From assembly GCA_036704125.1 (NCBI GenBank), contig DATNQI010000064.1:1-48438 (forward strand): 48,438 nucleotides of DNA, written 5' to 3'. The stretch comes from Pantanalinema sp. (GTDB lineage Bacteria > Cyanobacteriota > Sericytochromatia > S15B-MN24 > UBA4093). A program made the translations under genes and the position numbers. Shown here one piece after another: positions 8,295 to 24,809 of the stretch. The notes below the pieces were generated by a model. It ran no database searches, was not told where the DNA came from, and saw nothing but the letters and a program-made list of their open reading frames with translations. Positions within the stretch are counted from its first letter, which is position 1; each line of letters starts with the position of its first letter.

Positions 8295-9623
8295 ATGTTG
8301 AGCATCCGTCGCACCCTGTCGCGCCTCGCCACGCTCGCTCTGAGCGCGGGCATGCTTGCGGGCTGCTCCGCTCCGGCGATATGGGCACCGGGCGTCCAGG
8401 CGGACGGGACGCTGCGCGCCAAGGCCGCCGAAGGCGACTTCCCCGCGTCCAGCCCGCTCAAGGCGAGCACGGTGCTGAGCTACCAGGCCGTCGACAACAA
8501 CCTGCAGGGCAGCCTTCCGGCCGATCTGAACGTGATGGAGAAGGTCGTGGATCCCAGGACCATGAACCTCCTGGTCTCGGCGGACGTCTTCGCCTTCCGC
8601 TTCTCGTGGGCCAGGGGCTTCGAGAAGGTGAGCAACCGCGACAAGGAGGGAGCCTACCGCTTCTTCGTGACCCCGGATGGGCGCGACGAGGCCTACGCCT
8701 CGCCCTACGTGGGCCTCGCCGATCCCGACTCCGGCAGCGCCGCGCACCTTCGCGAGTTCATCTCCTGGGGGCTCGGCAAGTACCCCGGCAAGCTCAGGGT
8801 CCTCGACATCCGCAGCCACGGCCACGGGCCGCTCGGCATCGCCGACGACTTCCACTCGCGCAGCCGCATCTTCCTGCCCGAGCTCCAGGGGGCCATCAAG
8901 CAGGGGAGCGACGGCAAGGGCGTGGACGTCCTCACCACCAAGGCCTGCCTCATGGCCTCGGTCGAGGTCGGCTACCAGCTCTCGGACAGCGCGAAGTACC
9001 TGGTCGCCTCCGAGGACGGCATGCTCACCCGGACGGGCTCGGACTCGCTCTTCTACCGCAACCTCGATCTGCTCGCCAAGTCCCCTGCGATCACCGCCCG
9101 CGACTTCGCCGCCGCCTACGTCACCAAGGGCATGGCGCTCCAGCAGCCCGAGCTGCGCACCGCCACGACCTACTCGGCGGTCGATCTGAGCAAGGTGCCC
9201 GCCGCGATCTCCCCGATCAAGGCCATGAGCAACGCCCTGCTTTCGCTGGTGCCCTCGCGCAAGGCCGAGATCCAGGCCGCGCTGGCAGCAAGCCGCAACT
9301 GGGGGCGCTCCCAGACCCAGACCGACCTGTACGACCTCTGCGAGAAGCTCGAGGCGCTGGGGGACCCCGCGCTCACCCAGGCATGCGTCCAGGTGCGCCG
9401 CTCGCTCGGCGCCGCGGTGATGGTTGCGCTTTCGGACGAGGCGAACCGCGCCGGCATGCACGGCCTGACGATCATGACCCAGCTCACCACCGGCGATCAG
9501 GCCATGAACGAGGCGCTCTTCGCCCAGTACAAGCGCACCGCCTTCGATCGCGAGGTGGGCTGGTCCAAGGTCCTCGAGGCGCTCGGCGCGTTCGGTTCCG
9601 AGCGCAAGGACCACAACGGCTGA
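8295..9623 (+). CDS. Clostripain-family (C11) cysteine peptidase, lipoprotein
   Basis: A 442-residue exported protein. The signal peptide ends in a good lipobox, MLAGC (Cys24). The core resembles clostripain-family peptidases: a His-containing strand RVLDIRSHGHG (His175) and, about 40 residues on, the Cys motif TTKACLMASVEVGYQL (Cys218). This matches the family pattern DACLM..xEVAYxL except that Asp before Ala is Lys. Characterised members cut after Arg or Lys and may need Ca2+. The Asp-to-Lys change leaves activity and specificity open. The ATG follows AAAGGAG. The next gene starts 27 nt downstream with its own AAAGGAG, so the two are likely co-transcribed. Confidence 0.82.
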   Translation: MLSIRRTLSRLATLALSAGMLAGCSAPAIWAPGVQADGTLRAKAAEGDFPASSPLKASTVLSYQAVDNNLQGSLPADLNVMEKVVDPRTMNLLVSADVFAFRFSWARGFEKVSNRDKEGAYRFFVTPDGRDEAYASPYVGLADPDSGSAAHLREFISWGLGKYPGKLRVLDIRSHGHGPLGIADDFHSRSRIFLPELQGAIKQGSDGKGVDVLTTKACLMASVEVGYQLSDSAKYLVASEDGMLTRTGSDSLFYRNLDLLAKSPAITARDFAAAYVTKGMALQQPELRTATTYSAVDLSKVPAAISPIKAMSNALLSLVPSRKAEIQAALAASRNWGRSQTQTDLYDLCEKLEALGDPALTQACVQVRRSLGAAVMVALSDEANRAGMHGLTIMTQLTTGDQAMNEALFAQYKRTAFDREVGWSKVLEALGAFGSERKDHNG

Positions 9624-9650: not shown

Positions 9651-10172
9651 ATGCCTGACCCTCGCATCACCGGCGCCTCGCCGTCCGTGCCCCGCTCCCC
9701 CTCCCGGCCACCCGCGACGCCCGCGCGCCCGGCGACGCCCGAGCCCCGAGCGGCGGGCGACGCCCTTGCGACCCAGCCGCGCGCGAGCCAGGAAGCGGCC
9801 CGGCGGATCCTCGACGACCTCGCGAAGATCCCGGCGCCCCCCGCCGACACGACAGGCAAGATCCAGTGGCTGGCCGACGCCCGGCCCGCCCTGACGCGAG
9901 CCCGGGTGGCGGACGCGGCTCTCGGCGGCAAGAGCAGCGAACTGAAGGCCTTGGAGGCGCGCGTGCGCCAGGTCGAGCGCGAGGTCTTCCCGACGCGTGC
10001 GACCGGAAGCTCGTCCCAGCTCTTCGAGCTCACCAAGGGGGCTTCCGAGCTGGCTAGCAGCGAAAGTACCGTGGCGCAGGCCGCGGGGGTCGTGGCGCTG
10101 CCCATCGCGGTGACGATCGACGTGCTCGACCTGATCTCGCGCCTCAATGCGCCGGGCGCAAGAAAGCCTTAG
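9651..10172 (+). CDS. Unnamed 'LTKGASELA' family protein, short form
   Basis: A 173-residue protein with no signal peptide. Residues 1-45 are Pro/Ala/Arg-rich and probably disordered. Two blocks are shared by eye with the 287-residue protein at 25630-26493. One is ILDDLAKIPAPPAD followed by GK-QWL-AR (about 52-80). The other is QLFELTKGASELASS with LPIAVTIDVLDLISRL near the C-terminus (about 122-165), a hydrophobic or amphipathic end. I do not recognise the family. AAAGGAG with 7-nt spacing supports the ATG. It probably forms an operon with the clostripain-family gene and overlaps the convergent regulator gene by 29 nt at the 3' end. Confidence 0.75.
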   Translation: MPDPRITGASPSVPRSPSRPPATPARPATPEPRAAGDALATQPRASQEAARRILDDLAKIPAPPADTTGKIQWLADARPALTRARVADAALGGKSSELKALEARVRQVEREVFPTRATGSSSQLFELTKGASELASSESTVAQAAGVVALPIAVTIDVLDLISRLNAPGARKP

Positions 10173-13044
10173 CGCCCTGCGCCAGCCGCGCACGCCGCGG
10201 TTCATCGAAGCAAGGCTCATCGAGACTGTCGCAGAAGGGCCCGTCCACCGCCAGATCGGCCGCCATCCGGTAGAAGTCGCCGGCAACGGCCGTCAAGCCT
10301 AGCCGCTCCAGCTCGCACGCCTTCGCGACGAGGGCATCGAAGGCCCCCAGCTCGCAATTCAGGCGAGCCGCCGTCCCCAACCGATAATGGCCAGGCAGCG
10401 AGACGATGAGGTCCGAGGCCCCCCGCGCCTCGAGCGCCTTGCGGGTGGTCGCCACGAGGGAATAGACCGTCTTCTTGGCGTTGGCGTGCCGAGCGGCGGG
10501 ATAGAGCAGCGAGAAGATCCCATCCACCGAGAGCCCCTCGGGATGAAGGGCCAGCAGCGCGATCAAGGAGAGGCATTTCTTGCGCGGAAAGCGGATCGCC
10601 TCGCCCTCGACCTGCACGGCGGGCGCTCCGAACCACCGCAGGCGGATCCGGCCCTCGCGAGGCCTCCCGTCCGCGGTGCGGGCCGCCTCGCCCATTGCGA
10701 GCGCCGCGGCCAGGATCGGCGAGGGTCCTTCCTGGCGCAGGCGGTCGAAGATCCGCTCGGCAAGTTGGGGCTGGCCCGCGCGGACGAAATGTTGGCCAAA
10801 GGCCGCCAGGTAGAGGGCAAGGGCGGTGGGATCGGGGGCGGCCAGCCACTCGGCAGGGGTCTCCAGGAGGCGCGATGGCGAGAGCTCGTCCTCCTCTTCG
10901 TGGGGGCGCGCGTGCAGGCCGATGGCATGCACCACGAGCCGATCCACTTCGCCAGGATGACGCGCGGCATGATTCGCCAGGCGCTCGCTACAGGCGAGGC
11001 CATCGGGGGAATCGCCGGCAAGCGCCGCCATGGCCTCATGCGCGAGCACGATCCCCCGGGCGACAGCGTCCAGACGATCACCCAAGGCGGTCGCGATGAG
11101 CAACTCCTCGCGGAGCGCGAGGGCCCTTTCCTGGTGCCCGGACGCCCGGGCGGCCTGAAGGCTCCGGATACGCTCGACGAGCGCCGGCCGCTGCGTCTCG
11201 AGCAAGGCCCAGCCCTCGCTCCAGGCCAGGGGCGGCGGCGAGGGCGGAAGGTCGTTCGCTCTCAAGTAGGCGCGCGACTGCTCGCAAATCTCGCTCAGAC
11301 GCGCTCGGGGCGCGACGAAGCAAGACTCGCTCAGCCCGTCGAGAGGCGGGTTCGCCCCCATCCACGCGACGAGCCGATGGAACAAACGGGCTGCCTCGTG
11401 ATGGCCCCTCTCCTCGCATTCGAGCGCCTTGCGCTGAAGGTGCTCGAGCTCGCGGGAGTCGATGAGCGCGAAGCTCTCCTCGCGCAAGCGAAAACGCCCA
11501 TGCAAGCGATGGATGGGGTCGGGCACTCCCGCCGCCTTGAGCACCTGACGGGCCAGATAGACGGCCTTTCGCAAAGCCGCTTGCGGCTCCAGGTCATCGC
11601 TCGCCGGGAAGAGGCGCTCGATCAGCTCCGCGCTGCTCAGGCCCGCGGGATGGAGCGCGAGCAGTGCGAGCAGGGACAGGACCTTGCGCCGTGGAAAGGC
11701 GATGACGTCCTCGCCCACCCGGAGGCATGGCTGGCCGAGAAGACTCAGGCAGAGGGGGGGCGGCGCATCCGAGAGGCCCAGGCGTTGCAGCAGCCTCGCC
11801 TCGATGGCCTTCAGCGGCACGCCCTCGGGCCCCTCGATGAGGGCCTTCAAGGAGCAACGCGCCTCCGCGTTGCCGGCCAGCGCCGCGGCGGCGAGCCGAT
11901 AGAGCTGGACCCGCAGCCTGTCCTCCGCGCCCAGGGAGGCCTCGTCGATCCGCTCCAGGGCCTCCCGGGCCTCCGGTACCCTGCCGATCTGGAGCATGAG
12001 TACCGCCCAGGTGGGCTCCAGGTTGGCCAGAAACCGCTTCGGCTGCGCCTGGGAACGCAGCATGGCCAGGGACTCTCGCGCCGGTGAGAGGTCGCCCTGG
12101 CGCGCCTGGACGTGCATCAGCCAGAAGCGGGCGATGGTTCCGCGATGCGCCGTCACCCCGCGCATGCCGGAGGCCAGGTGAGCGAACAGGGAATGAGCCA
12201 GCGCGAGCTGTCCCAGCAAGAGGGCGCGGATGCCGAAACTCGTCACCAGGTCGAAGCGAGCAACGAGCGAGGCCTGGTCGAAGGCCTCGCCCGGCACCTC
12301 GAAAAGCTCCTCGATCGCGGGCACCCGGCGCTGATCGAGCAGCGCGGCGTTGATGCGCTGGACGAACGCCACGAGCAGGTTGGCGCGAAAGCCGTAGCGC
12401 AAGCCGAGCGCGACCAGGGCGTCGGCCTGCGACTTGGCCTCGTCGATTGCCGTCAGGTCGATGGCCGTGGCGCCCAGGGCATACCGGGCGCTGAAGTGGA
12501 GGAAGGCGACGCGTCGATCGCACGGTCCATCCAGGGCGAGGACCGCCTCCATGTGCGCTCGCGCCGCGCTCGTCTCGCCCAGGCGCCACTGCCGGATGCC
12601 CTGGTAGTACTCCCACAAGGCAAGGCCGTTGAGCGAGAGGTGCGATGCTCGAGGTGCGAGCCGCAGCGCGAGCTCGGATGCCTGGGTATGGGCTCCGAGC
12701 CGAGTGAGCGCGGCGAATCGCCGAACGTCGATCTCCAAGGCGAGCGTAGGGGCCGGCGCGAGAACCTGGGCCCGGCTGTAAAGGGTGATCGCGAGGGCAT
12801 CCTCGCGCTCGGCTGCCAGCAGGTCGCCCTGGAACATCGCGTAGTAGGGACGGGTCGCGCGGGTCCTTTCGGGCACCGCGTGCAGCTCCCGCGCCAAAAG
12901 TGGCGCCTGATCCGAATGCCTCAGCTGCGCCGCCATGGCCTCACACCGCGCCTCGTGATCGGAAAGTCCCCAAAGGACCTTCGCCCCCTCGGCAAGACCG
13001 AGCGCAGGCAGGAACTCCGGGGCATGCCAGGGGTGCGTGTCCAA
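10144..13044 (-). CDS. Large regulator with duplicated winged-helix/BTAD-like units and TPR-like region
   Basis: A 966-residue cytosolic protein. Residues about 40-425 are helical and TPR-like. A SARP/OmpR-type winged helix follows (about 430-520: LSLLGQPCLRVGEDVIAFPR, RRKVLSLLALLALHP) with a BTAD-like helical segment. After another helical stretch the unit recurs (about 800-890: LRWFGAPAVQVEGEAIRFPR, KKCLSLIALLALHPEGLS) with a second BTAD-like end. No Walker A or STAND ATPase is seen, unlike AfsR. I prefer the TTG at 13044, after AGGAGAGGAAG (13 nt away). A GTG at 13116 lacks a Shine-Dalgarno and overlaps the upstream gene. It lies 34 nt downstream of lipoprotein cassette A on the same strand and may regulate it. 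Confidence 0.85.
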   Translation of the reverse strand: MDTHPWHAPEFLPALGLAEGAKVLWGLSDHEARCEAMAAQLRHSDQAPLLARELHAVPERTRATRPYYAMFQGDLLAAEREDALAITLYSRAQVLAPAPTLALEIDVRRFAALTRLGAHTQASELALRLAPRASHLSLNGLALWEYYQGIRQWRLGETSAARAHMEAVLALDGPCDRRVAFLHFSARYALGATAIDLTAIDEAKSQADALVALGLRYGFRANLLVAFVQRINAALLDQRRVPAIEELFEVPGEAFDQASLVARFDLVTSFGIRALLLGQLALAHSLFAHLASGMRGVTAHRGTIARFWLMHVQARQGDLSPARESLAMLRSQAQPKRFLANLEPTWAVLMLQIGRVPEAREALERIDEASLGAEDRLRVQLYRLAAAALAGNAEARCSLKALIEGPEGVPLKAIEARLLQRLGLSDAPPPLCLSLLGQPCLRVGEDVIAFPRRKVLSLLALLALHPAGLSSAELIERLFPASDDLEPQAALRKAVYLARQVLKAAGVPDPIHRLHGRFRLREESFALIDSRELEHLQRKALECEERGHHEAARLFHRLVAWMGANPPLDGLSESCFVAPRARLSEICEQSRAYLRANDLPPSPPPLAWSEGWALLETQRPALVERIRSLQAARASGHQERALALREELLIATALGDRLDAVARGIVLAHEAMAALAGDSPDGLACSERLANHAARHPGEVDRLVVHAIGLHARPHEEEDELSPSRLLETPAEWLAAPDPTALALYLAAFGQHFVRAGQPQLAERIFDRLRQEGPSPILAAALAMGEAARTADGRPREGRIRLRWFGAPAVQVEGEAIRFPRKKCLSLIALLALHPEGLSVDGIFSLLYPAARHANAKKTVYSLVATTRKALEARGASDLIVSLPGHYRLGTAARLNCELGAFDALVAKACELERLGLTAVAGDFYRMAADLAVDGPFCDSLDEPCFDEPRRARLAQGAKAFLRPAH

Positions 13045-13078: not shown

Positions 13079-14056
13079 TCAGCGCGGTGCAAAGGTCCCA
13101 CCGATATCGGAAGCACCGATCGCGGTGACGGTGAAGGGGAGTGCCGCGCTGGTGCCGCCCTGGGTCCGGACCGTCAGGTTGCCGGTGGCGGCGCCCGCCG
13201 GCACCTGAACGACCAGCTGGTTCGGATCCGAGCTGATCACGGTGGCGCGCTTGTTCCCGACATAGACGGCATTGTCGGTACTCGCCCCGGCGAAGTCAAG
13301 GCCGTACAGGGTGACGAGACTCCCGACCGGCCCTTCGGTCGGGACGGCGGCATGCAAGGTCGGTGCGAGCACGTATCCTCCCAGGCCCGTGCCGGCCTTG
13401 AGGACGAAGGACGGGCCCAAAGGGACGATCCGGTCCATCGGGTCGGTCTCCTGGGCGAGGGCCTGATCGACCAGCTCGTAGACCTTGTGGAACTGGGCGT
13501 TGGTGATCCCGGTGCCGGCGTGCTGGAAGGTATCTGCGGTGGTGGGCATCAAGGAAGCGTCCGGGGTGCCCGCGATCATCTTGCCGACGAGCCCGTCCAC
13601 CGGCACCGATGCCGTTCCCAAGTGGCTGGTCAGGATCGCGACGGCGGTGGTGCCGGTGGTGATGATGATCCCCCCCTGGGTCAGGAACTTCCAGCCGCCG
13701 GAAGTCCAGCCCCCCAGAGTCCGGACCCTGGCCGCCGAGCTTCCGGCGAGGTTCTGGTTCAGCCCCTTGATGGCCTCCAGGTAGTATACCTCGCCGGTGG
13801 TGGGCTTCCAGCCTCGAAAGGAGAGAACGAAGCGGCCACCGGCGTCGGTCAGGGCCGAGGAGACCGCCCGGTTGTCGGAGGCCCCGATCAGGGTCACGGT
13901 CGCCGCCACCCCGACCTCGTCGAGGGTGGCCTGGGTCCTCAGGGGCGCGCCGAAATCGACCCGGCCCGACAGCTCGGGAATCGGATCCGAGGCCCCGGGG
14001 AAAAGGGCGCACCCTCCAAGTCCCGCGAGCAGCAGCGTGGTCATCACTTTGCGCAT
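13079..14056 (-). CDS. IPT/TIG-domain lipoprotein (cassette A, type c)
   Basis: A 325-residue exported protein. The signal peptide ends LLAGLGGC (Cys near residue 16). Residues about 45-120 form a domain shared with the large TIG proteins here (TVTLIGASDNR, YYLEAIKGLNQNLAG, ARVRTLGGW). A C-terminal IPT/TIG Ig-like domain follows (about 235-315: GPVGSLVTLYGLDFAG, LVVQVPAGAATGNLTVRTQG). It ends ASDIGGTFAPR, almost the same tail as its paralogue at 19407-20411 (SDIGGSFSAR). TIG domains occur in cell-surface and adhesion proteins; the ligand is unknown. It is the fourth cassette gene. Its ATG follows AGGGGGAC, 10 nt after the stop of the 961-residue gene. Confidence 0.82.
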   Translation of the reverse strand: MRKVMTTLLLAGLGGCALFPGASDPIPELSGRVDFGAPLRTQATLDEVGVAATVTLIGASDNRAVSSALTDAGGRFVLSFRGWKPTTGEVYYLEAIKGLNQNLAGSSAARVRTLGGWTSGGWKFLTQGGIIITTGTTAVAILTSHLGTASVPVDGLVGKMIAGTPDASLMPTTADTFQHAGTGITNAQFHKVYELVDQALAQETDPMDRIVPLGPSFVLKAGTGLGGYVLAPTLHAAVPTEGPVGSLVTLYGLDFAGASTDNAVYVGNKRATVISSDPNQLVVQVPAGAATGNLTVRTQGGTSAALPFTVTAIGASDIGGTFAPR

Positions 14057-14066
14057 GGCCGTCCCC

Positions 14067-16952
14067 CTAGTAGGTGTAAGGGAGGGTGATGCGGGTGATC
14101 TGCGTGTTCGAGGCCGAGAAGTTCACCTTGAACCGGATGTAGCGGCGGGTCAGCGTGGTGATGTCCGAGACCCAGGAACCCCATGCGTTGTTGTCGGCGC
14201 TGTCCTGGTACTGGATGGTGTAGCTGCCGTTGTTCGCGTTGATGACCGGGGACTCGTAGACCCCGTAGTTGGTGCCCGTGTCGTAACCATTGGAGATGGC
14301 GAAAGAGGGACGCGTGGTCACCGACCACGACGTGAGCAGAGGAACGGCCGTGTTCCCGCCCGTCATGGTGGCCCGGAGCTTGAGGCTACCCGCGGCGAGG
14401 CCGTTCAGACTCGTTCCACTCGAGACATTGCTCATGAGGACGGCGTTGGTCGATCCGTCGAGAACATCCACGGTGAGGGCGGTGCCTGCAGGCACCGTCC
14501 CGTTGAAGGTCAAGGTATCCCAGATGGAACTCGCGGGAAGGGCAAACGCCGAGGTGAGAGAGGTGCCTGAAGCACCCGACGCGAAGGTGATTGCCGAACC
14601 GTTGACCTTGAACCTGAAAAGCGACAGCGCCCCGCCGTTGTAGGCGGCATTTGAGCCCAGGATGAAGAGATCGGTCCCGTTCGAGCCGATCGTGGGATAA
14701 GCCATGGAAAGCCCCGTGCTCCCGATCGTGAAGGGCAAGTTGACCGTATCATTCGCCCCACCCGGGTAGGTCAGCGCCTGCAGAGTCGTAATGCTAGCAG
14801 CCGTCGAGTTCTTGAGCAGGAAAGTCGGTGATCCGGTAAACCCGGCGGCTGCAAGACCGCCAGAGTTGGTCAAGGACCAGGGATTGGCCACGGCGCCCAA
14901 TCCCGTGCCGATGATGGAGTAGTTGCCCCAGTTCGAGTTCACGAGGTAATGGGTCCCGTTCGTGGCCAAGAAGGACGTATGGCTGTATCCGCTGGTCACC
15001 TGGGATCCGGCGAAGGCGTTGTACTTGTAGATCGCAGCATTGTTCGGCCCGAACTCGGCATACAGGTTCTCGGTCGGCAGATAAACATAACTGCCGGCCG
15101 AGTTCGTTCCCATCCCGCGCGTCCCCATTGACGAGCCATCGAACAACGAATACCTGTATACGGTGCCCGATCCGTTCCCGAAGAAGTACGAGGCCCCATC
15201 GACACCCAGCTGCGTGGCCCAGCTCCCACCGGGTTGCTGCCCGGTGTGAGCCATCACGGCAGGCAGCATCGTGAGCTGGTTGCTTCCGTTCAACGCTACT
15301 CCGACGTTGGTGTTCGCGCTGAAGTTGCTCTGGGTGAACGTCGTGACCGCCGATGCCGGCTGGAGCGCGTTGCTGCCCCAGGCGGCATTGGTGCTGCCAT
15401 TCTTCTGGTTGGTGGTGGCGAAGTTCTCGACCACGTTCTGCCGGGCGGTGAAGGGGCCGCCGCTCTGGCTGATGATCCCCGCATCCGACTGGACCGTGAG
15501 CGGCCCCGAGATGCGCGCCGTCAAGGAGGGAGGCGGCGCGAGGCCCACCGCCTGGGTGCCGAACCACGAGGTGATGTTCGGCGACGGCGTCCCGTTGAAG
15601 CGGATCTTGCTCTGGGGCCCCTGGGTGGCGAAGTTCTGGCCGTTGACCGTCACCGAGGTCAGCTCGTTGCCCGTGTTGGGGGAGAAAGAGGCGATGATGG
15701 GCACGGTGAAGTTGAAGAAGAAACCCTTGGTCACCCCGCCAACCGTGACGGTCATGGGGCCCGAGGCCGCCCCGGCGGGAACCTTGGCCACCACCATGTC
15801 GCTATCGGCGTAGGTGACCTCGGCATCGACCCCGGCGAACTTGACGACGTTGTCGCTCAAGGTCGTGCTGAAGCCGGTCCCGCGGATCATGATCGAATCG
15901 CCGGGTGCACCGTTGGCGGGCACCAGGGCCGAGATGCTCAGGCCGCCTGCGCTTCCTCCGCCGCTGCCCCCACCGCCTCCCGAGGCCGAGAGGGCGTAGG
16001 CTGCGGCTTCCTTGCTCGTCCCGACGCCGGTCTTGACCGTGACGACCCCCGAGCTGGGCGCGCCGGGGGGGACGAACACCCCCAGCGCGGTAGAGGAGGC
16101 CGTGAAGATCGAGGCGCTCGCCGCCCCGAAGCGCACCACGTTGCCGCTCTGGATGGGCGAGAAGCCGCTCCCCGTGATGATCATGGCCCCGCCCGAGGTC
16201 GGGTTGGATGGGGTCAGGGTGGTGATGCTCGGCCCGATGTTCGCCGTGTTGCGCACCGGGTCGAAGTCCTTGTTCAGGTAGCTGAGCATCTCGGTGGCAA
16301 GCAGGGCGATCTCGCTATCGGGGTGGTTGGTCAAGGCCGGGGACGCGTTGAGGCTGGTGCCCGAGACCTTGTTCATGGTGCCGCCCGGGGGCACGTCGAT
16401 CGGATCCAGGCTGCTGATGACCGCCACCGCCGTGGTCTGAGCGTTGATCACGATCGAGGTGCCCGAGGTACTCGTCCAGGCCCCGCCCGTCCAGGTCAGG
16501 AAGGTGCGGAAGCGCGCCACGTCGTTGCCCGCGGCGTGGTTGTTGAGGCCGCGGCTTGCCTCCAGCAGGAACGTCGACCCGGGAAGAGGGGTGAAGCCGT
16601 TGAGCGAGAGCACGAAGGTGCCGTCGGCATTGGTGCGGCCGGTGACGATGGTGAGGTTATCCGAAAGCGAGACGAGGGTCAGGGTCGCGTTTTTCGAGGC
16701 GTAATCCGGAGCCGCAAGGATCGTGCGGTCTCCCGGCATCGACAGCGCGCCACGGATGGCAGTGTCGGTCGCTCGCGCCTGCGATGCCGCATGCTCGATG
16801 GCGTCGGCGCCGTCGGAAACACGGGCCGGAGCGTCGGGCAAGGTTGAAAAAACGCTGGCGCCGGGCGTCACGCAGGATGTGAGGCAGAAAGCGGTCAAAA
16901 CGGCCAATCCCGGAACAAGATTCGCCTGGCGACGCTTGATGGGCTGAGGCAT
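14067..16952 (-). CDS. Large three-TIG lipoprotein (cassette A, type b)
   Basis: A 961-residue exported protein. The lipobox is LTSC (Cys27). Residues about 85-160 form the shared N-terminal domain (NATLTLVSLSDNLTIVTG, FLLEASRGLNNHAAG). IPT/TIG domains lie at about 240-322, 338-406 and 418-490, the first two joined by a Gly/Ser linker (324-337). From about 510 to 860 comes an Asn/Ser/Gly-rich region with strand repeats (YVYLPTENLYAEFG, AIYKYNAFAG), possibly a propeller. The last 80 residues (RRYIRFKVNF, ITLPYTY) match the end of the paralogue at 21372-24110, whose centre differs. The ATG follows AGGAGGG overlapping the preceding stop. Probably surface-exposed or adhesive; function is inferred only. 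Confidence 0.82.
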   Translation of the reverse strand: MPQPIKRRQANLVPGLAVLTAFCLTSCVTPGASVFSTLPDAPARVSDGADAIEHAASQARATDTAIRGALSMPGDRTILAAPDYASKNATLTLVSLSDNLTIVTGRTNADGTFVLSLNGFTPLPGSTFLLEASRGLNNHAAGNDVARFRTFLTWTGGAWTSTSGTSIVINAQTTAVAVISSLDPIDVPPGGTMNKVSGTSLNASPALTNHPDSEIALLATEMLSYLNKDFDPVRNTANIGPSITTLTPSNPTSGGAMIITGSGFSPIQSGNVVRFGAASASIFTASSTALGVFVPPGAPSSGVVTVKTGVGTSKEAAAYALSASGGGGGSGGGSAGGLSISALVPANGAPGDSIMIRGTGFSTTLSDNVVKFAGVDAEVTYADSDMVVAKVPAGAASGPMTVTVGGVTKGFFFNFTVPIIASFSPNTGNELTSVTVNGQNFATQGPQSKIRFNGTPSPNITSWFGTQAVGLAPPPSLTARISGPLTVQSDAGIISQSGGPFTARQNVVENFATTNQKNGSTNAAWGSNALQPASAVTTFTQSNFSANTNVGVALNGSNQLTMLPAVMAHTGQQPGGSWATQLGVDGASYFFGNGSGTVYRYSLFDGSSMGTRGMGTNSAGSYVYLPTENLYAEFGPNNAAIYKYNAFAGSQVTSGYSHTSFLATNGTHYLVNSNWGNYSIIGTGLGAVANPWSLTNSGGLAAAGFTGSPTFLLKNSTAASITTLQALTYPGGANDTVNLPFTIGSTGLSMAYPTIGSNGTDLFILGSNAAYNGGALSLFRFKVNGSAITFASGASGTSLTSAFALPASSIWDTLTFNGTVPAGTALTVDVLDGSTNAVLMSNVSSGTSLNGLAAGSLKLRATMTGGNTAVPLLTSWSVTTRPSFAISNGYDTGTNYGVYESPVINANNGSYTIQYQDSADNNAWGSWVSDITTLTRRYIRFKVNFSASNTQITRITLPYTY

Positions 16953-16964
16953 GGATGAACCCTC

Positions 16965-17978
16965 CTAGTTGACCGTGACCGAGGCGGTGGCAATGAGGCT
17001 GCCGGCAGTGGCGCGGATCTCGTAGCTGCCCGTCGAGCCAGGGGTGAAGAGGCCGTCGAGCAAGGTGGACGGGGTCGCTTCACCAGGCAGCGAAAGGACC
17101 GGGCAGGTTTGCTGGAAGAACCACGTGACGACCGGGTTCGGGATCGGAACGCCGAGCTTGTCGGTTGCGCCGAGGAGGTAGTCTATCGGGGCGCCAGCCG
17201 ATGCGACGGCGGTTTCGGGACTCAGCGCGAGGGCCCGGATGACCCGGAAGCCCTGCGCGCTCGTCACCGTCAGTCCGTCCGCCGTCACGGTGATGGGGCC
17301 ATCCTCGGCCTGGGTCGGAACCACGGCGGTGAGCTGGGTTTCGTTGCCGGAGACGTAGGGGGCGAGGCTCCCGCCGAAGCGCACCTCCACCGGCTGGCCC
17401 CAGCCCTTGAAGCCGCTCCCCGTGATCACGACGGTGGAAAGGGGAGCCCCGCTGGATGGAATCGATGCGATCTCCGGCATGGTCTGGGGAACGAGTGCCA
17501 GATCCGCCGTCACCTCCTGGCTCGGCTCGACCGTGACGGTGACGTCACCCTGGGCGATCGGGACCGAGTCGAATCCCGGGACCTGCTCCTGGAAGGCCTT
17601 GACCACGACCCGACGATCGGCTCCTGCGGGCACGGTGAGGTTGGCCGTCGTTACCCACGTTCCGGCCTGGGGGCGCGTGATCACAGCCTCGGCCAGGCGA
17701 TGTTCGGCAACATCAAGCACCTGGACCGTGATGGCGTTGGTGCGGAGAGGAATGGCCAGCGTCCGGTAGTCACGACGCTCGGGCCAGAGAATGGACAGGC
17801 GCAGCGTCCCGGTGACCGTGGGCGGCACCTCGGGCCGCACGTTCGATTCAGTGTTGCCCACGCCCGCTTCTAGACGCTCGAGGGTGGCAACCGGCAGCGT
17901 CGCGCTGGCGCATGCGCTCAGCGCGACACTTGCGCTCAGCAGCAAAGCGGTTCGAATCAAGGACAACGCAACGCGCAA
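16965..17978 (-). CDS. TIG-domain lipoprotein (cassette A, type a)
   Basis: A 337-residue exported protein with signal peptide ending ASVALSAC (Cys23). Order: an N-terminal strand-rich domain (about 55-160: GTLRLSILWPERRDYRT, VVVKAFQEQVPG), an IPT/TIG domain (about 165-245: PSSGAPLSTVVITGSGFKGW), and a C-terminal Ig-like domain (about 250-337, ending GSLIATASVTVN). The paralogue at 20408-21367 matches across its length (TVTLVPTLGPVIYDMTP, GTIVATASVKTP). The start is TTG at 17978, 8 nt after an AGGAG that overlaps the stop of the upstream Thr-Pro gene. It is second in cassette A, whereas its counterpart is third in cassette B. Function unknown. Confidence 0.78.
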   Translation of the reverse strand: MRVALSLIRTALLLSASVALSACASATLPVATLERLEAGVGNTESNVRPEVPPTVTGTLRLSILWPERRDYRTLAIPLRTNAITVQVLDVAEHRLAEAVITRPQAGTWVTTANLTVPAGADRRVVVKAFQEQVPGFDSVPIAQGDVTVTVEPSQEVTADLALVPQTMPEIASIPSSGAPLSTVVITGSGFKGWGQPVEVRFGGSLAPYVSGNETQLTAVVPTQAEDGPITVTADGLTVTSAQGFRVIRALALSPETAVASAGAPIDYLLGATDKLGVPIPNPVVTWFFQQTCPVLSLPGEATPSTLLDGLFTPGSTGSYEIRATAGSLIATASVTVN

Positions 17979-17989
17979 GGCTCTGGCTC

Positions 17990-18547
17990 CTATCGGACGA
18001 TCACGTTGATGCGCCCCGCGGTCGTGACGGTGATGAGGGCCGAGGCCGCGACGCTTGCCCCGAGAGCGGTCGCGGTGATGGACACGGGGCCTGCAGTAGC
18101 GGTCGAAGGGGCATGCACCGTGCCATCCGTCGCAACGAGTGCGCGAGCCGGATCGGAGGTCGACCAGACGACCCGATCATGGGTACTGCCGTCCGACATG
18201 GTGACCGTCGCAACCAGTCGGATGGCGGTCACGAAACCCGGCGCGGCGGGCCCCGACGGCGGCAAGGCATTGATCGTGGCTGATGTGGGCGATACCACCA
18301 CCCGCTGGGCGGTGGGGGTCGGCGTAGGTGTGGGGGTCGGCGTAGGTGTGGGCGTAGGTGTCGGGGTGGGTGTGGGCGTGGGTGTCGGGGTGGGCGTGGG
18401 CGTGGGTGTCGGGGTGGGTGTCGGGGTGGGGGTGGGAGTCACCGCCAGCGGCTCGATCACTCCGAGGTCCTCCGTCCCGGCACAAGCCCCGATCAGGCTA
18501 GCAACGGCCAAGATCGCATAGAGTAATCGAAGCCACGAACCCGGCAT
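17990..18547 (-). CDS. Thr-Pro-repeat / Ig-like (Big_2-type) lipoprotein (cassette A, lead gene)
   Basis: A 185-residue exported protein: signal peptide with lipobox-like IGAC (Cys22), a short segment (AGTEDLGVIEPLAV), then about 22 uninterrupted Thr-Pro pairs forming a rigid stalk. A C-terminal bacterial Ig-like domain follows (about 90-185: [52 protein letters not shown]). I choose the ATG at 18547 and not the upstream TTG. It aligns with the paralogue's ATG at 24698, and both follow GAAGGTGTCGT. The architecture suggests a surface-anchored domain held away from the membrane. It leads cassette A under the element at 18602-18626. Confidence 0.8.
   Translation of the reverse strand: MPGSWLRLLYAILAVASLIGACAGTEDLGVIEPLAVTPTPTPTPTPTPTPTPTPTPTPTPTPTPTPTPTPTPTPTPTPTAQRVVVSPTSATINALPPSGPAAPGFVTAIRLVATVTMSDGSTHDRVVWSTSDPARALVATDGTVHAPSTATAGPVSITATALGASVAASALITVTTAGRINVIVR
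18312..18440. repeat. Hexanucleotide repeat coding (Thr-Pro)n
   Basis: About 22 copies of a GGNGTN-type hexamer (plus-strand view), partly in a 12-nt higher-order pattern, encode the Thr-Pro stalk. Copy-number change would alter stalk length without shifting frame. Third positions vary, so the array is not perfectly homogeneous. Confidence 0.85.
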
Positions 18548-18601
18548 ACTGACGACACCTTCCAATGATAGTCACCATGCGGTTTTACCCCGATCCCAGT
18601 C

Positions 18602-18626
18602 AGGGCAACGTAGGCAATCGACTTAC
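18602..18626 (-). promoter_or_regulatory. Upstream element shared by both lipoprotein cassettes (copy A)
   Basis: The reverse strand reads GTAAGTCGATTGCCTACGTT and continues GCCCT, ending 55 nt before the lead ATG. The same sequence with four changes lies at 24754-24777 in front of cassette B at the same distance. Sequence between this element and the GAAGGTGTCGT near the start is not conserved, which argues for a functional promoter or operator. Confidence 0.6.
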
Positions 18627-18646
18627 ATTCAGGAAGAAGTCGTGAA

Positions 18647-19363
18647 ATGCCGGGGCCCTCTATCCCCTTGACCAGACCTGATAGACTAGGGAATGTGATC
18701 CTCAAAGACGCTCCACCAGACGAATTGCAGGCGATATACAGCCGCCTATTGGCCCACTTTGGCCCTCGCGGCTGGTGGCCCGCCGACACGGCGACCGAGA
18801 TGATGGTCGGAGCCCAACTGACCCAGTCGGTCGCATGGCGCAACGTCGAGACGTGCCTCCGGCGCCTGAAAGAGGCGGATCTGCTGGACTGGCGGTCGCT
18901 GCACGCGGCCCCCGAGCCGCTGATCGAGGAGCTGATCCGGCCCTCTCGCTACTTCAGAGCCAAGACGCGCAAGCTCAAGTCGCTTGCCGCCCACATCGTG
19001 GAGCGCCACGGGGGCGACCTGTCGCATCTGTTCGCCACGCCGCTTCTCGAGCTCAGGCGCGAGCTGCTCGGGGTCCACGGCCTGGGCCCCGAGACCGTCG
19101 ATTGCATTCTCGTATACGCGGCCGAGTTGCCCAGCTTCGTGGTGGACGCCTACACCCGCCGCATCTTCAGCCGGCTGGGCTACTTCGACGAACGCATCGG
19201 CTACGAGGCCATGCGGCGCTTCTTCAGCGATCGCCTCCCTCCAGACGTGCCCCTCTTCAACGAGTACCACGCCCTGATCGATGCGCTTGGGCACCACCAC
19301 TGTCACCCGAAGGCGCCGAAGTGCGACCTCTGTCCCCTGAAGGACATTTGCCGGGGCGAATGA
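18647..19363 (+). CDS. MagIII-like / endonuclease III-related DNA glycosylase with [4Fe-4S] motif
   Basis: A 238-residue HhH-GPD protein of the 'endonuclease III-related' group that includes MagIII 3-methyladenine glycosylase. The start of the core is HFGPRGWWPADTATEMMVGA followed by LTQSVAWRNV. The helix-hairpin-helix is LLGVHGLGPETVDCILVYA, and the catalytic Asp is in FVVDAYTRRI. The Nth bifunctional lysine is absent (GPETVD), suggesting a monofunctional base glycosylase. The C-terminal cluster is C-x6-C-x2-C-x5-C (CHPKAPKCDLCPLKDIC). The ATG has AGGA about 12 nt upstream; a GTG at 18695 better matches the family N-terminus. It lies between the two lipoprotein cassettes, divergent from A and convergent with B. 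Confidence 0.88.
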   Translation: MPGPSIPLTRPDRLGNVILKDAPPDELQAIYSRLLAHFGPRGWWPADTATEMMVGAQLTQSVAWRNVETCLRRLKEADLLDWRSLHAAPEPLIEELIRPSRYFRAKTRKLKSLAAHIVERHGGDLSHLFATPLLELRRELLGVHGLGPETVDCILVYAAELPSFVVDAYTRRIFSRLGYFDERIGYEAMRRFFSDRLPPDVPLFNEYHALIDALGHHHCHPKAPKCDLCPLKDICRGE

Positions 19364-19406
19364 GCGCTCAGACGTCGTTCCTGGCCGGTACCGTCGCCAG
19401 CAGCGC

Positions 19407-20411
19407 TCACCTCGCGCTGAAGGAACCCCCGATGTCGGACGAGGAGGTGGCGGTGACAGTGAAGGCCACGGATCCGGTGACGCCCGTCCTCGCCCGCACG
19501 ATCACGGGCCCCGTGGCGGCTCCTGCGGGCACGCGCACCGTTAGCCGGGTCGGCGTCGCGGCCAGCACGGGGGCCACGACGCCGCCGAATGAGACCGTCT
19601 GGTCGGAGGCGACAGGCTCGAAGTTCGTGCCATACAGGATCACGACGGTGCCGACGGCGTTCGCCGCCGGAACGATCGTGAGAAGGGTGGGCGGCGGTCC
19701 CAAAGGCACGCTCTCGGCCATCCCGTAACCGTCCGGTCGCTTCGCCAGCCCCGCCACCGGGTCAACGTCGTTGGCCAGAAGACGGTCCATGAGCCCGTAG
19801 ACCTGGTGGAAGGCCAGGTTCGTGATGCCCGTCCCCGAGGGTTCGAACGTGTCGGGGGTCGGTGGACTCAAGGACGAGTCGAGGGTTCCCGGAGTGACCG
19901 TGCTGAGCAACCCCTCTGGCGGGATCGACGCGCTCCCCTCCAAACTGGCGATCACGGAGAGGGCGGTCGTGGACAGGTTCAGCCAGATGCCCACCCCGGG
20001 CAATCGGTTGGTGAGGGTGACCCAGCCACCAGGCTGGTACCGGGCCATCGTTCGGAGGCGGACGGCGTCGTGGCCCGCGAGGTTGCTGGACAGCCCCTTG
20101 GAGGCCTCCAGGTAGTACACCTTGCCGCCGGGACGAAACCTGCTGCCGAAGGTGAGGACGAACTTTCCACTGGTATCCGTGAGCGTGGTGGCCACGGTCA
20201 CGTTGCTGTCGGTATCGATCAGCGAAACCGTGGCAGCCAGGGCAACCTCCTCGATGTCGGCCTGGACCTTACGCCCCCCGAAATCGACCCTCCCCGCGAG
20301 CTCGGGAACGAGCGGGGGCGTGACGCCTGCCGGGGCGCAGCCCGTCACGACGAGGGCCAAAGCGATCGCCTTCCAAATATGCCATTGAATGGCGTGTCTC
20401 AGCTGTTTCAT
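19407..20411 (-). CDS. IPT/TIG-domain lipoprotein (cassette B, type c)
   Basis: A 334-residue paralogue of the protein at 13079-14056. The signal peptide ends ALALVVTGC (Cys25). Shared features are VPELAGRVDFG, the domain with VYYLEASKGLSSNLAG, the stretch DTFEPSGTGITNLAFHQVYG (DTFQHAGTGITNAQFHKVYE in copy A), a C-terminal TIG domain with VRVPAGAATGPVIV, and the tail SSSDIGGSFSAR. A proline-rich join before the TIG domain (GPPPTLLTIVPA) is clearer than in copy A. Its ATG overlaps the TGA of the 319-residue gene (ATGA), indicating translational coupling. It is the last gene of cassette B and ends 43 nt from the convergent glycosylase gene. Confidence 0.82.
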   Translation of the reverse strand: MKQLRHAIQWHIWKAIALALVVTGCAPAGVTPPLVPELAGRVDFGGRKVQADIEEVALAATVSLIDTDSNVTVATTLTDTSGKFVLTFGSRFRPGGKVYYLEASKGLSSNLAGHDAVRLRTMARYQPGGWVTLTNRLPGVGIWLNLSTTALSVIASLEGSASIPPEGLLSTVTPGTLDSSLSPPTPDTFEPSGTGITNLAFHQVYGLMDRLLANDVDPVAGLAKRPDGYGMAESVPLGPPPTLLTIVPAANAVGTVVILYGTNFEPVASDQTVSFGGVVAPVLAATPTRLTVRVPAGAATGPVIVRARTGVTGSVAFTVTATSSSDIGGSFSAR

Positions 20412-21367
20412 GGCGTTTTCACCGATGCGGTCGCGACGATCGTCCCCGAGTAGACGCGCACGACGAAGGTTCCCGTGGCCAGCGGCGTGAAGGCGCCCTG
20501 GGCCAGCGAACTCTCGGGGGCCGGGCGATCGACCAACCAGCCGAGCTCCGGCTCGCGGATGAGCTGACCACTGGCCGTACGGGCCTCGGCCACGAGGTTC
20601 ACCACGGAGCCCGTCGCCACCTGGTCAAAGGCATCCTGGGCCAGGGTGATCGAACGGATGACCTGGAACGGCCGGCTCTCCTTCACCCCGTCCACGTCGA
20701 CCTCCACGGGCCCGTCCTGGGCATCGGGCGGGACTTCGAACTCCAGGAGATCGCCGCGCAGGGTCACGAACGGGTCGATACTTCGGCCGGCCATCCGGAC
20801 CAAGAGCGGGCCGGTCTGGAAGTTGCCCCCCACGATCCTAACCAGGCTGCCCGGCCCGCCGTTGGGCGTCATGTCGTAGATCACTGGGCCGAGCGTCGGG
20901 ACCAGCGTCACCGTGACCGCGGCGGACGTGCTCGGCCAAATGGTGATGCCCGTGCTGCTTCCCTCGGCCACCGGCGCAACGCCAGGGGCAGGCACCAGCT
21001 CTCGGAAGGCCTGGACGAGCACGCTGCGTCCGGTGCCCGAGGAAAGGGCGAAGCTGGCGGTCGCGATCGTGCTCTCATCCCCCGGGCGAATGAACTCGGC
21101 GCGCGCCATCAGCTCACCGGCGACATCTCGGACCTGGATCCGGATCATGTTGGCGCTGGTCGGGATCAGCTGCGCTCGGAACTCGCCACGCGCAGGCCAG
21201 CGCACGGCGACGTTTAGCCTGCCGCTTGGTGCGGCGGCTTCGAGGTGCGTGGCGCCAAGCGTGTTCGGGACCACGGCAGGCGCCACCCCCCGGACCAAGG
21301 CTCCGGGGGGGACGCAAGCCGCAGCGCAGGCGGCCGCGAGGGGGATGACGAGGGCGAGGCGTCGCAT
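20408..21367 (-). CDS. TIG-domain lipoprotein (cassette B, type a)
   Basis: A 319-residue paralogue of the protein at 16965-17978. The signal peptide is short (MRRLALVIPLAAACAAAC, Cys18). The N-terminal strand-rich domain (RLNVAVRWPARGEFRA, VLVQAFRELVPA) precedes a TIG domain (YDMTPNGGPGSLVRIVGGNF) and a C-terminal Ig-like domain (ITLAQDAFDQVATGSVVNL, ending SGTIVATASVKTP). The ATG begins 4 nt after the stop of the 912-residue gene, with only a weak Shine-Dalgarno, so translation may be coupled. In cassette A the equivalent gene comes before the large TIG gene; here it comes after, so order has been rearranged since duplication. Confidence 0.78.
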   Translation of the reverse strand: MRRLALVIPLAAACAAACVPPGALVRGVAPAVVPNTLGATHLEAAAPSGRLNVAVRWPARGEFRAQLIPTSANMIRIQVRDVAGELMARAEFIRPGDESTIATASFALSSGTGRSVLVQAFRELVPAPGVAPVAEGSSTGITIWPSTSAAVTVTLVPTLGPVIYDMTPNGGPGSLVRIVGGNFQTGPLLVRMAGRSIDPFVTLRGDLLEFEVPPDAQDGPVEVDVDGVKESRPFQVIRSITLAQDAFDQVATGSVVNLVAEARTASGQLIREPELGWLVDRPAPESSLAQGAFTPLATGTFVVRVYSGTIVATASVKTP

Positions 21368-21371
21368 AGGC

Positions 21372-24110
21372 TCAGTAGGCGTAGTTGAGCGCGAGGCTGT
21401 TCAGGACTGCATTCCCCGACACCGTCGCCTTCCAGCGGAGGAAGCGCCGTGCCGGCAGGCTCGCGAACGTTGCGTTCCACGGGCTCCAGGACACGCCGTC
21501 GGAACTGCTGGAGTACTCGAAGCCGAGCGACCCGCCATTGAGCGTCTGGTTGGGGCTGACGCTCATGTAGGTGGGCGCCATGGTGCCGGTGTCGTAGGCC
21601 TTGGACTGGACCGTGCCCATGGCGATCTGGTAGAGGGAGAGCGCAGTCGAACTATATCGCGGCGTGCTCGCGCCAGCCGCCGAGGACTCGAGCCCGCTGT
21701 TGGGATAGATCACGCCCCCGAGCTTGTCGTACGAGAGCCGGACCCTACCGTAGCCGCCGGCCGAATAGGACGATGACCAGGTGGAGTTGTATCCGGTCCC
21801 GCCGTTCACGAGCACCGAGCTGGCCGCCAGGGACATGGTCGAGGCGTTCAGGAAAATCGACCCCCCGCTACCGCCGCCGCCGTAGCTCCCGACGTAATTG
21901 CCACCGTTTGCCGAGATAACACCGTTGTTGGTCAGGGTCGAGGCGTTGATGAAAACGACCCCGCCCCCGTTTCCGCCTCTACTGACACTGTTGTGCTCGG
22001 CGCCGCCGCCCGCCCCCGGGAAGATGCGGCTGAGATCGGGGGTGCCTCCCGCCGAACCGCCGGTCGCATAGCCGCCGGATCCGGCGGTGCCTCCACCCGC
22101 GGTGCCGTAGCCGCCGCCGCCGCCGTTGTTGTTGCCGCCGCCGCCGCCGTTGCTCCCGATGCCGTTGCCGCCAGGCACGCGCGAGCCGTCATTGGTGACG
22201 CTGCCGCCCTCGGCGTAGCCCCCACCGCCTCGGCCGTTGTTGATGCCCACGCCGCCTCCGTTCGTGGCCGACCCCATGTTCGCGTTGGGGAAGCCCGAGG
22301 TCGAGGCGTAAACGCCGCCCGTCCCCCCGAGGGCATCGGCGCTGATGCGCCCGCCCGCGTTCACGGTCAGGGTGTCCGATCGAAAGACGATGAAGCCCCC
22401 AGCCAGCCCCAGCGTATCGACCCCCTGGGTCGTCAGGGTCCCGGTCACCGTGACCGCGCCGTAGTGGGGCACCTTCTGGCACAGGGACTGCCCCTGGTTG
22501 TAGGTGTGGGCCAGGGCGTTGGTCATCGTCAGCACGCTGCCGTTGACCGACTTGATGGTGTTGAACTCCCAGTAGCCTGCCCCCGTGCCATAGAGCTGGA
22601 CCAGGAAGATCTCCTGGCCGGGCTGGAAGCCCAGGCTGTTGCCCACGATGACGTTCTGGCTGCCAACGTTGCCGTCCGAAGCCAGGATGCTCCGGGGCGG
22701 CGCGAAGGTCGTGGTGCCCGCCGGCACGTTGAGGTTGCCGTCGTAGAGGATGCGGGGACCGCCGGTCCAGACGACGTTGAGGCTGTTGTCCGAGTCCCAC
22801 AGGTTGTTGTCCAGGAAGTTCTCGGTGACGTCCGTCGAGGCCGTGAAGTTCCCGTAGGGCTGGCTCAGAAGGCCCTGGCGGGTCCCCAGCAGGACCGGGC
22901 CGGAGACGCGGCCGGCGAGCGTGGGCCCCGGCACCTTGGCCACGGCCTCGGTGTTGGTCCACGACGAGAGGAAAGGCGCGTTGATCTGGTTGAAGCGCAC
23001 CAGGCTGCCGACGCCGAAGGCGTCGAAGTCGGTGCCCGTGACGGTGACCCCGTTGGTGTTGAAATCGCCCGAGTTCGGAGAGAGGGCGGTGATCACGGGA
23101 GACGCGCCCGTGCCGCCGCCCGATCCCCCGGAAGCGCCCCCGGCGCCCGCGACCACGAACGACAGGGCCTCGGGGTTCGTTCCCTGGGAGGTCGTCACCT
23201 TCAGGACACCGGTACCGGGGGCGGTCGCCGGCACGTACACGCCGAGCGACGTCGGAGAGGCGAAGAAGACCGAGGCCGTCGCCGTGCCGAACAGCACCGT
23301 GTTGTCGCCCGCGATGGGGGAGAAGCCCCGCCCCTTCAGGACCATGGCCCCGTTGACCGCGACGGTCGGCGGCTGAAGGGCCGTGAGGCTGGGCTTGATC
23401 GACGGGACGCTGCCCACCGGATCCAGGTCGTTGGTGAGGCAGCTTGCGATCGAGGCCGCGAGGGCCGCCACCTCGGGGTCGGGGTGCCCCGTCATAACGG
23501 GGCTGGCGTTGAGCGAGGTACCGCTCACCTTGTCGATGGTGGCGCCGGGACTGACGTTCACGGGATCGAGGCTGCTCTCGATGGCCACCGCCGTGGTCAG
23601 GGCGTTGATGAGGATCGAAGCGCCCGAGATACTCGTCCAGGCGCTTCCCGTCCACTTGAGGATCGTCCGGAAGCGCGCCACGGTGTTGCCGGCCGCATGG
23701 TTGTTGAGGCCGCGGCTCGCCTCGAGCAAAAAGTAGGTGTTGGATTCAGGGGTGAAACCGCCGAGCGGCAGCACGAACGAGCCGTCGGTGTTGGTCTTTC
23801 CCGTGACGACCGTGAGGTTGTCCGCAAGGCCTATCAAGGTCAGCGTGGCGTTGCTCGAGGCGTAGTCGGGGGCCGCCTGCGCCTTGATGGCCGGGAACCG
23901 GACCGCACCACGGATGGCCGTGGCCTCCGTCTTGCTCGTCGCCGTGACCGCCTCCACGACCGAGGACGCCGGCCCCGCGAGGGGCGTGGGGGCCAGCTGG
24001 CAAGCCGACAGGGCCAAGGCGAGCGCTGCGACGGCCCAGCGCCGGGCTTGCAGGCGGGCACGCGTCAGCAGAGCGGTTCCTGGGATGTAGGTCGACGATG
24101 TGGTTCGCAT
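21372..24110 (-). CDS. Large TIG / glycine-rich lipoprotein (cassette B, type b)
   Basis: A 912-residue paralogue of the protein at 14067-16952. The lipobox is ALSAC (Cys37). The shared N-terminal domain has NATLTLIGLADNLTVVTG and YFLLEASRGLNNHAAG. Two TIG domains follow, matching the first and third of copy A, so the second is missing. The centre (about 460-790) differs from copy A: strand-turn repeats with long Gly/Asn runs (TLTVNAGGRISADALGG, GVISANGGNYVGSYGGGGSG) recall beta-helical adhesins. The last 80 residues again match (RRFLRWKATVSG, LNYAY). The ATG sits 4 nt after the preceding stop, with GGAG spanning that stop. A surface role is inferred; binding partner unknown. Confidence 0.82.
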   Translation of the reverse strand: MRTTSSTYIPGTALLTRARLQARRWAVAALALALSACQLAPTPLAGPASSVVEAVTATSKTEATAIRGAVRFPAIKAQAAPDYASSNATLTLIGLADNLTVVTGKTNTDGSFVLPLGGFTPESNTYFLLEASRGLNNHAAGNTVARFRTILKWTGSAWTSISGASILINALTTAVAIESSLDPVNVSPGATIDKVSGTSLNASPVMTGHPDPEVAALAASIASCLTNDLDPVGSVPSIKPSLTALQPPTVAVNGAMVLKGRGFSPIAGDNTVLFGTATASVFFASPTSLGVYVPATAPGTGVLKVTTSQGTNPEALSFVVAGAGGASGGSGGGTGASPVITALSPNSGDFNTNGVTVTGTDFDAFGVGSLVRFNQINAPFLSSWTNTEAVAKVPGPTLAGRVSGPVLLGTRQGLLSQPYGNFTASTDVTENFLDNNLWDSDNSLNVVWTGGPRILYDGNLNVPAGTTTFAPPRSILASDGNVGSQNVIVGNSLGFQPGQEIFLVQLYGTGAGYWEFNTIKSVNGSVLTMTNALAHTYNQGQSLCQKVPHYGAVTVTGTLTTQGVDTLGLAGGFIVFRSDTLTVNAGGRISADALGGTGGVYASTSGFPNANMGSATNGGGVGINNGRGGGGYAEGGSVTNDGSRVPGGNGIGSNGGGGGNNNGGGGGYGTAGGGTAGSGGYATGGSAGGTPDLSRIFPGAGGGAEHNSVSRGGNGGGVVFINASTLTNNGVISANGGNYVGSYGGGGSGGSIFLNASTMSLAASSVLVNGGTGYNSTWSSSYSAGGYGRVRLSYDKLGGVIYPNSGLESSAAGASTPRYSSTALSLYQIAMGTVQSKAYDTGTMAPTYMSVSPNQTLNGGSLGFEYSSSSDGVSWSPWNATFASLPARRFLRWKATVSGNAVLNSLALNYAY

Positions 24111-24113
24111 GCG

Positions 24114-24698
24114 TTACTCCACGATGATGAAGAGGTCGCCATCGGTCGTGACGGTGATGAGGGCGGAGGCCGTGAGGCTGGTCCCCTGCGCCGTGGCGGT
24201 GACGGTCGCGGTTCCCGCGGTGGCCGTCGAGGGAGCCTGAACCGTGCCGTCCGGCGCGACCCGAACGCGCGCCGGATCGGAACTCGACCAGGTGACCCGG
24301 CCATGGGTACTGCCGTCCGACATGGTGACGGTCGCGAACAGCTGAACGGTGGTCACGTAGCCCGGAGCGCCAGGCCCCGAGGGCGGCAAGGCGTTGATCG
24401 TGGCCGAAGTGGGCGAGACCGCCACCTGCTTAGCGATTGGAGTCGGTGTCGGGGTCGGTGTGGGCTTCGGGGTTGGGGTCGGCGTGGGCGTCGGGGTTGG
24501 AGTCGGGGTTGGAGTCGGGGTGGGATGGGGCGTCGGTGAGGGAGTCGGCGACGGGGTGGGGGCTGGAGTGGAAGGCGACGGAGACGGGGACGTGACTGCC
24601 TGCGGCTCGATCAAGCCCACGTCGTCAGTTACGGCACAAGCCATGATCAGGGTTGCCGCCGCCAGAACTTGGGGTAGGCGAAGCCACGAAACCGACAT
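24114..24698 (-). CDS. Thr-Pro-repeat / Ig-like lipoprotein (cassette B, lead gene)
   Basis: A 194-residue paralogue of the lead gene of cassette A. The signal peptide ends TLIMAC (Cys21). A Ser/Pro/Thr-rich stalk of about 55 residues is more degenerate than in copy A (it includes HP and KP pairs). The C-terminal Ig-like domain is nearly identical in its core ([40 protein letters not shown]). The ATG at 24698 aligns with that at 18547, and both have GAAGGTGTCGT upstream. It leads cassette B; the next gene starts 3 nt after its stop. Confidence 0.82.
24438..24583. repeat. Degenerate hexanucleotide repeat coding Thr/Ser-Pro stalk
   Basis: A GGNGTN-type hexamer array homologous to 18312-18440 but more diverged, with occasional codon changes (His, Lys, Ser for Thr). 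It is the stalk region of the cassette B lead gene. Confidence 0.75.
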
Positions 24699-24753
24699 CT
24701 ACACGACACCTTCGAATGCTGTCACATGGGAGCCCATACCCTGCAGACGACCG

Positions 24754-24777
24754 AGGGAACGTGGGCACTCGACTTAC
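24754..24777 (-). promoter_or_regulatory. Upstream element shared by both lipoprotein cassettes (copy B)
   Basis: The reverse strand reads GTAAGTCGAGTGCCCACGTT and continues CCCT, 56 nt before the lead ATG, matching copy A at 18602-18626. It lacks an obvious sigma70 -35/-10 pair, so it may be an activator site or an alternative-sigma promoter. Confidence 0.6.
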
Positions 24778-24809
24778 CAATCTCCCCTACCAAGCCCAAA
24801 GTCAGGCAC

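Follow-up and report, generated by a model that had tools for sequence, protein, structure and literature searches.

The closest described counterparts of the genes reported here are the surface glycan-binding proteins (SGBPs) and TIG-NHL lipoproteins of Bacteroidetes, which are likewise lipoproteins with a TIG/Ig spacer followed by a C-terminal module, NHL propellers being found among the paralogues. The proteins concerned, BT_3476 (pdb-code: 3tc9), BACOVA_00264 (4hw6), SGBP-B (7k44) and BACOVA_02650 (5e7g), also match in sequence. Further resemblances exist to AgmC of the adventurous gliding motility of Myxococcus (NF047640), whose AgmC-N positions 98–388 align with one Gly-rich C-terminal half described below, to the LIC10067-type lipoproteins of Leptospira (NF047769), which also carry TIG domains, and, with respect to a single Ig domain, to Big_2 surface proteins of the Intimin/Lig type. 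Nothing on the present genes was found in open-licence papers. The analysed window of 48,438 nucleotides, contig C64 of a 3.51-Mb metagenome-assembled genome (MAG) of Pantanalinema sp., contains two four-gene lipoprotein cassettes, A and B, which judged from their sequences are rather probably two of about 20 loci of an exchangeable surface-recognition system of Sericytochromatia. What is new are modular surface lipoproteins whose core domain has no name and whose heads are swapped, commoner than these two loci.

Both cassettes are encoded on the minus strand, A at 18547–13079 in the order lead-a-b-c and B at 24698–19407 in the order lead-b-a-c, and all eight genes of an earlier sequence-only reading are present as it stated. 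Cassette A consists of the lead (17990–18547), ‘a’ with a TTG start (16965–17978), the large ‘b’ (14067–16952) and ‘c’ (13079–14056); cassette B of the lead (24114–24698), the large ‘b’ (21372–24110), ‘a’ (20408–21367) and ‘c’ (19407–20411). Each of the eight proteins begins with a lipobox-type signal peptide, as read in the sequence. The open reading frame of lead A is listed to 18565, and ATG 18547 is the likelier start because the GAAGGTGTCGT block preceding this ATG is common to B. The intergenic gaps in A amount to 11 (lead/a), 12 (a/b) and 10 nt (b/c), the lead frame being counted as 18565–17990, and the junctions in B to 3 nt (lead/b), 4 nt (b/a) and a 4-nt overlap (a/c); the range of 3–12 nt plus one overlap agrees with the claimed spacing of 2–12 nt or overlap. 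Each cassette would form one operon-like transcript; scans for promoter and terminator consensus sequences gave matches no better than chance. Upstream of the leads, 76 bp are homologous between A (18548–18625, minus strand) and B (24699–24780, minus strand), with a local alignment score of 39 versus 24 for the best of 300 shuffles. Between A and B lies a plus-strand gene (18647–19363) for an endonuclease III-like HhH-GPD protein that has an iron-sulphur motif; it diverges from lead A and converges on ‘c’ of B. Elsewhere in the window, lipoprotein-like genes of the clostripain family (8295–9623, plus), with a VWA domain (932–2104, minus) and with an NHL propeller (36704–37990, minus) were detected, as well as a glycosyl hydrolase family 1 protein (39585–40940, plus) whose lipoprotein-type signal is unusual since the family is usually soluble.

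The leads combine a Thr-Pro linker with an Ig domain which reaches 30.0 bits against Big_2 (PF02368; gathering score 22.8 bits) in B and 19.8 bits, hence below the gathering score, in A; over the last 104 residues they are 72% identical. Of the four protein types originally described, the matching sets of eight genes stand, while b and c have a common N-terminal domain of ca. 175 residues, so that only three N-terminal families are present. This domain has no existing name and is termed NTD here; Pfam yields just weak Ig-like matches under the cut-off (CarboxypepD_reg/MG3/Big_6). The ‘c’ proteins (46% identical between A and B) have an NTD-TIG architecture, in A without an added C-terminal module, assigned in A by Pfam and an AlphaFold2 model and in B by Pfam and NTD comparison. 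The model of the A protein (mean pLDDT 91) is composed of a beta-sandwich, two long helices and a TIG domain. In a structure search with this model the PDB matches seen among the best 50 are to TIG domains, the TIG part matching the Bacteroides TIG-NHL ‘auxiliary nutrient binding’ structures 3tc9 and 4hw6 and SGBP-B 7k44. The ‘a’ proteins (35% identical) possess their own N-terminal beta domain, termed AN and unlike NTD, followed by TIG and Ig-like parts, and form one clade with homologues from the related genomes G006 and G007 (support 99/97). TIG (PF01833, gathering score 20.9 bits) is above the gathering score in all but one of the non-lead proteins, namely ‘a’ (28.5 bits), ‘b’ (76.7) and ‘c’ (51.3) of A and ‘b’ (41.2) and ‘c’ (30.5) of B; in ‘a’ of B it stays below and is recognisable by homology only.

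The b proteins are 40% identical overall and 54% over the first 330 residues. They were described as one large type, which holds for the NTD (68% identical) and not for the C-terminal halves, which are different modules: ‘b’ of A carries three TIG domains and a 460-residue C-half of the G006 type, and ‘b’ of B two TIG domains and a Gly-rich, AgmC-N-like C-half. The C-half of A gave neither a Pfam match nor a PDB sequence match, and a fold assignment from its predicted model was dropped (pLDDT 40). The 68 NTD proteins whose C-half is at least 100 residues long were sorted into 16 C-half clusters, with no detectable similarity between clusters at E 1e-6. Pfam names an NHL/teneurin propeller, a Kelch propeller, LamG_3, CBM_4_9 and, just under the cut-off, an FGE-sulfatase module.

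NTD lipoproteins with an FGE-sulfatase C-half (L032:8243–11610, L120, L122, L124, L125, L127 and L128) are very variable between paralogues in their last 45 residues. A diversity-generating retroelement was considered as the source of this variation and discarded, as no VR-TR match was found and third-position changes are common; differences that include third positions do not originate from template copying. The host genome (G000) contains no reverse transcriptase. A diversity-generating retroelement was found at L171:1198–2420 (contig C412 of G007); it encodes a reverse transcriptase with an IGNLTSQ motif, contains the AAC-rich template repeat RGGSWNNDAQNARAANRNNNDPGNRNNNLGFR and has an FGE-type target that is truncated where the contig ends, and it is unlinked to NTD proteins.

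The fifth gene on the same strand, 34 nt after ‘c’ of A (10144–13044, minus strand, likely TTG start at 13044 as read from the sequence), encodes a SARP-like regulator with TPR and two winged-helix/BTAD-like parts. Its Trans_reg_C and TPR scores are sub-threshold only, it is not among the BTAD (PF03704) matches at the 22.1-bit cut-off, and it shows just distant similarity to BTAD proteins of loci L113 and L082. A homologue is positioned beside another cassette (contig C4), a BTAD protein precedes the cassette of contig C45, and others occur near cassettes in contig C18, G006 and G008, while two further members of the regulator family (contigs C62 and C1) lie away from cassettes. Four of six SARP/BTAD-type regulators are within three genes of a cassette (crude p about 1e-4, counted after the loci were seen).

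In the favoured scenario of an exchangeable recognition system, lipidation would carry the cassette proteins to the outer membrane, where they would face outward. The TIG repeats might act as a stalk keeping the C-terminal module off the cell, and the NTD as an assembly or docking part which lets b, c and ‘a’ cooperate. The C-terminal module, whether of propeller, lectin, carbohydrate-binding or AgmC-like type, would then bind a polymer, a surface or a partner cell. Cassettes would multiply by duplication and diversify by module swap on a retained platform, and the SARP-like regulators beside some of them may turn individual sets on. As a tentative and clearly less probable extension, invariant lead and ‘a’ subunits might constitute one multi-lipoprotein complex together with the conserved NTD platform, a class-specific combinatorial surface organelle whose heads are swapped between cassettes, whose platform stays compatible through homogenisation within a genome and whose sets are switched by the local SARP-like regulators.

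Alternatively, the cassettes could build adhesion or gliding-type surface structures with the big C-terminal modules as adhesins, instead of serving nutrient or glycan recognition. Adhesins frequently contain Thr-Pro linkers and stalks of TIG and Ig domains, and the C-half of ‘b’ of B and its G007 homologue match the AgmC-N model with 83.7 and 54.5 bits, respectively. Both scores fall below the curated cut-off of 275, so that ‘b’ of B was rejected as an AgmC; moreover, only one of the 16 C-half clusters is of the AgmC type, and lectin and carbohydrate-binding folds are found among the rest. We regard an adhesive or gliding role as rather unlikely.

Recognition by exchangeable heads is also favoured by the distribution of the genes. 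The NTD profile has 32 matches in the host genome, corresponding to about 30 NTD proteins in about 20 clusters; A and B are hence no isolated pair, and the initial picture of a two-locus structure is not supported. Ten of the 18 Sericytochromatia genomes carry NTD, the host being one of them, and several relatives have 4–28 NTD proteins each; the 41 other Cyanobacteriota searched have none. A scan of genome contigs with one NTD peptide pattern retrieved only MAGs of the Sericytochromatia type. The AN and lead profiles match 17 and 18 of the 18 Sericytochromatia genomes, respectively, partly via their TIG and Ig parts, and gave no match in the other cyanobacteria tested. On these searches the NTD lipoprotein system appears restricted to Sericytochromatia; more distant NTDs might exist beyond the searched genomes.

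A genome-wide search of the host detected 12 leads, ten of which are fused to ‘a’ or have ‘a’ next, and a chance clustering of lead and ‘a’ is excluded (crude binomial 6e-23). In gene maps of 59 runs from nine genomes, with loci chosen around profile matches, the gene directly after the lead is ‘a’ in 39 of the 43 unfused cases, spread over eight genomes and with a median gap of 7 nt, three of the remaining unfused leads have an NTD gene next and one does not, two further leads are fused to ‘a’, and all 46 leads adjoin or are fused with a family member. Lead, ‘a’ and the two NTD forms are combined, among others, in G006 (L082, L083), G007 (L118, L121, L130, L132) and G004 (L103). The four types are supported as a conserved operon-like module: at least four further Sericytochromatia genomes contain them together, contrary to the scattered occurrence that would have refuted the cassette in the earlier reading. 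A family of ca. 600-residue proteins takes the place of the NTD genes after some lead-a pairs (L049:8907–10742, L098:5228–7093, L111:8485–10281, L121:445–2241); L049:8907–10742, the one member searched, has no Pfam match. Paired lipoprotein-like genes of one unnamed family (363–389 residues) adjoin cassettes at L103:6912–9246 and L121:5546–7753.

Locus L034:5045–18095 is a tandem AN-NTD-NTD-NTD-NTD-AN lipoprotein block with LamG, CBM and NHL modules and recent near-identical copies, and L043 contains a paralogous block. The near-identical tandem copies visible as the L034 pair in the NTD tree, together with solitary NTD genes such as the FGE type in G007, would fit envelope lipoproteins that expanded in this lineage without sharing a function and whose clustering reflects mere tandem duplication. 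We consider this improbable because lead, ‘a’ and NTD proteins are non-homologous in their N-terminal domains, yet linked across genomes and families, which is not explicable by tandem duplication of one gene.

The history of A and B themselves was deduced from comparisons with G006 and G007. In the NTD tree the two b proteins are nearest neighbours in a starred four-member clade, whereas the C-half of A matches only L083 of G006 and that of B only L132 of G007. C-half identities are 47% (A–G006) and 52% (B–G007) versus 29% between A and B, while NTD residues 67–212 are 65–77% identical between A and B versus 43–71% between A and G006; identities per segment along the b gene display the same reversal between N- and C-half. 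A quartet test of the C-halves favours the pairing of A with G006 and B with G007 (lnL difference 188). For the b N-half A+B is preferred and A+G006 not rejected (AU p 0.17), and for the leads A+B is favoured and A+G006 marginally rejected (AU p 0.048). L083 has lead-a-b-c on one strand, the order of cassette A, with the same module, and L132 has lead-b on one strand convergent with c-a on the other, sharing the module and the lead-b start with cassette B. The two b proteins are, by these comparisons, probably mosaics of a common NTD and C-halves each of another relative’s type, and A and B look like two old cassette types now adjacent, with order and module as properties of the type.

A and B are therefore unlikely to be a recent copy followed by shuffling. 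The swapped C-halves are in line with the earlier suggestion of alternative versions of a single structure. The picture of one cassette merely duplicated on the spot and reshuffled afterwards is not supported. A recent duplication of one cassette is very improbable, and for b largely refuted, as the homologous upstream regions and leads and the similar NTDs of b are outweighed by C-halves that are each nearer to other genomes, by third positions at shared residues that are only about 40–70% identical between A and B, and by the identical gene order in A and G006.

Sericytochromatia are uncultured, non-photosynthetic sisters of the oxygenic cyanobacteria, and this gene set, which accounts for about 30 large proteins in a genome of 3.5 Mb, offers a handle on their contact with the surroundings. 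Ligands of the end modules can feasibly be tested by expression without culturing the organism.

Compared with the described systems, the exchangeable-head cassettes differ in several respects. The leads are lipoproteins with a single short Ig domain ending a Thr-Pro linker, unlike the Intimin/Lig proteins. Against the Leptospira model NF047769 the scores are 16–61 (cut-off 200), with the similarity lying in the TIG stretch only. Unlike in AgmC, the C-half of ‘b’ of B is fused to NTD and TIG, and ‘b’ of A has no AgmC-like part. An assignment as SusCD-associated SGBPs was ruled out by the absence of SusD (SusD-like_3) from the host genome, and adjacent SusC/SusD genes are accordingly not found; only two TonB plug genes are present, on contigs C14 and C99 and not on the cassette contig, and no polysaccharide-degradation or SusCD-type locus adjoins the cassettes. 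The similarity to the Bacteroidetes SGBPs is confined to TIG, the NTD having no counterpart there, and the present proteins are encoded in a multi-gene cassette with a Thr-Pro/Ig lead. The working mode, a TIG spacer carrying a putative binding head, is presumably analogous, and the cassettes provide a natural example of platform-and-head surface diversification outside Bacteroidetes.
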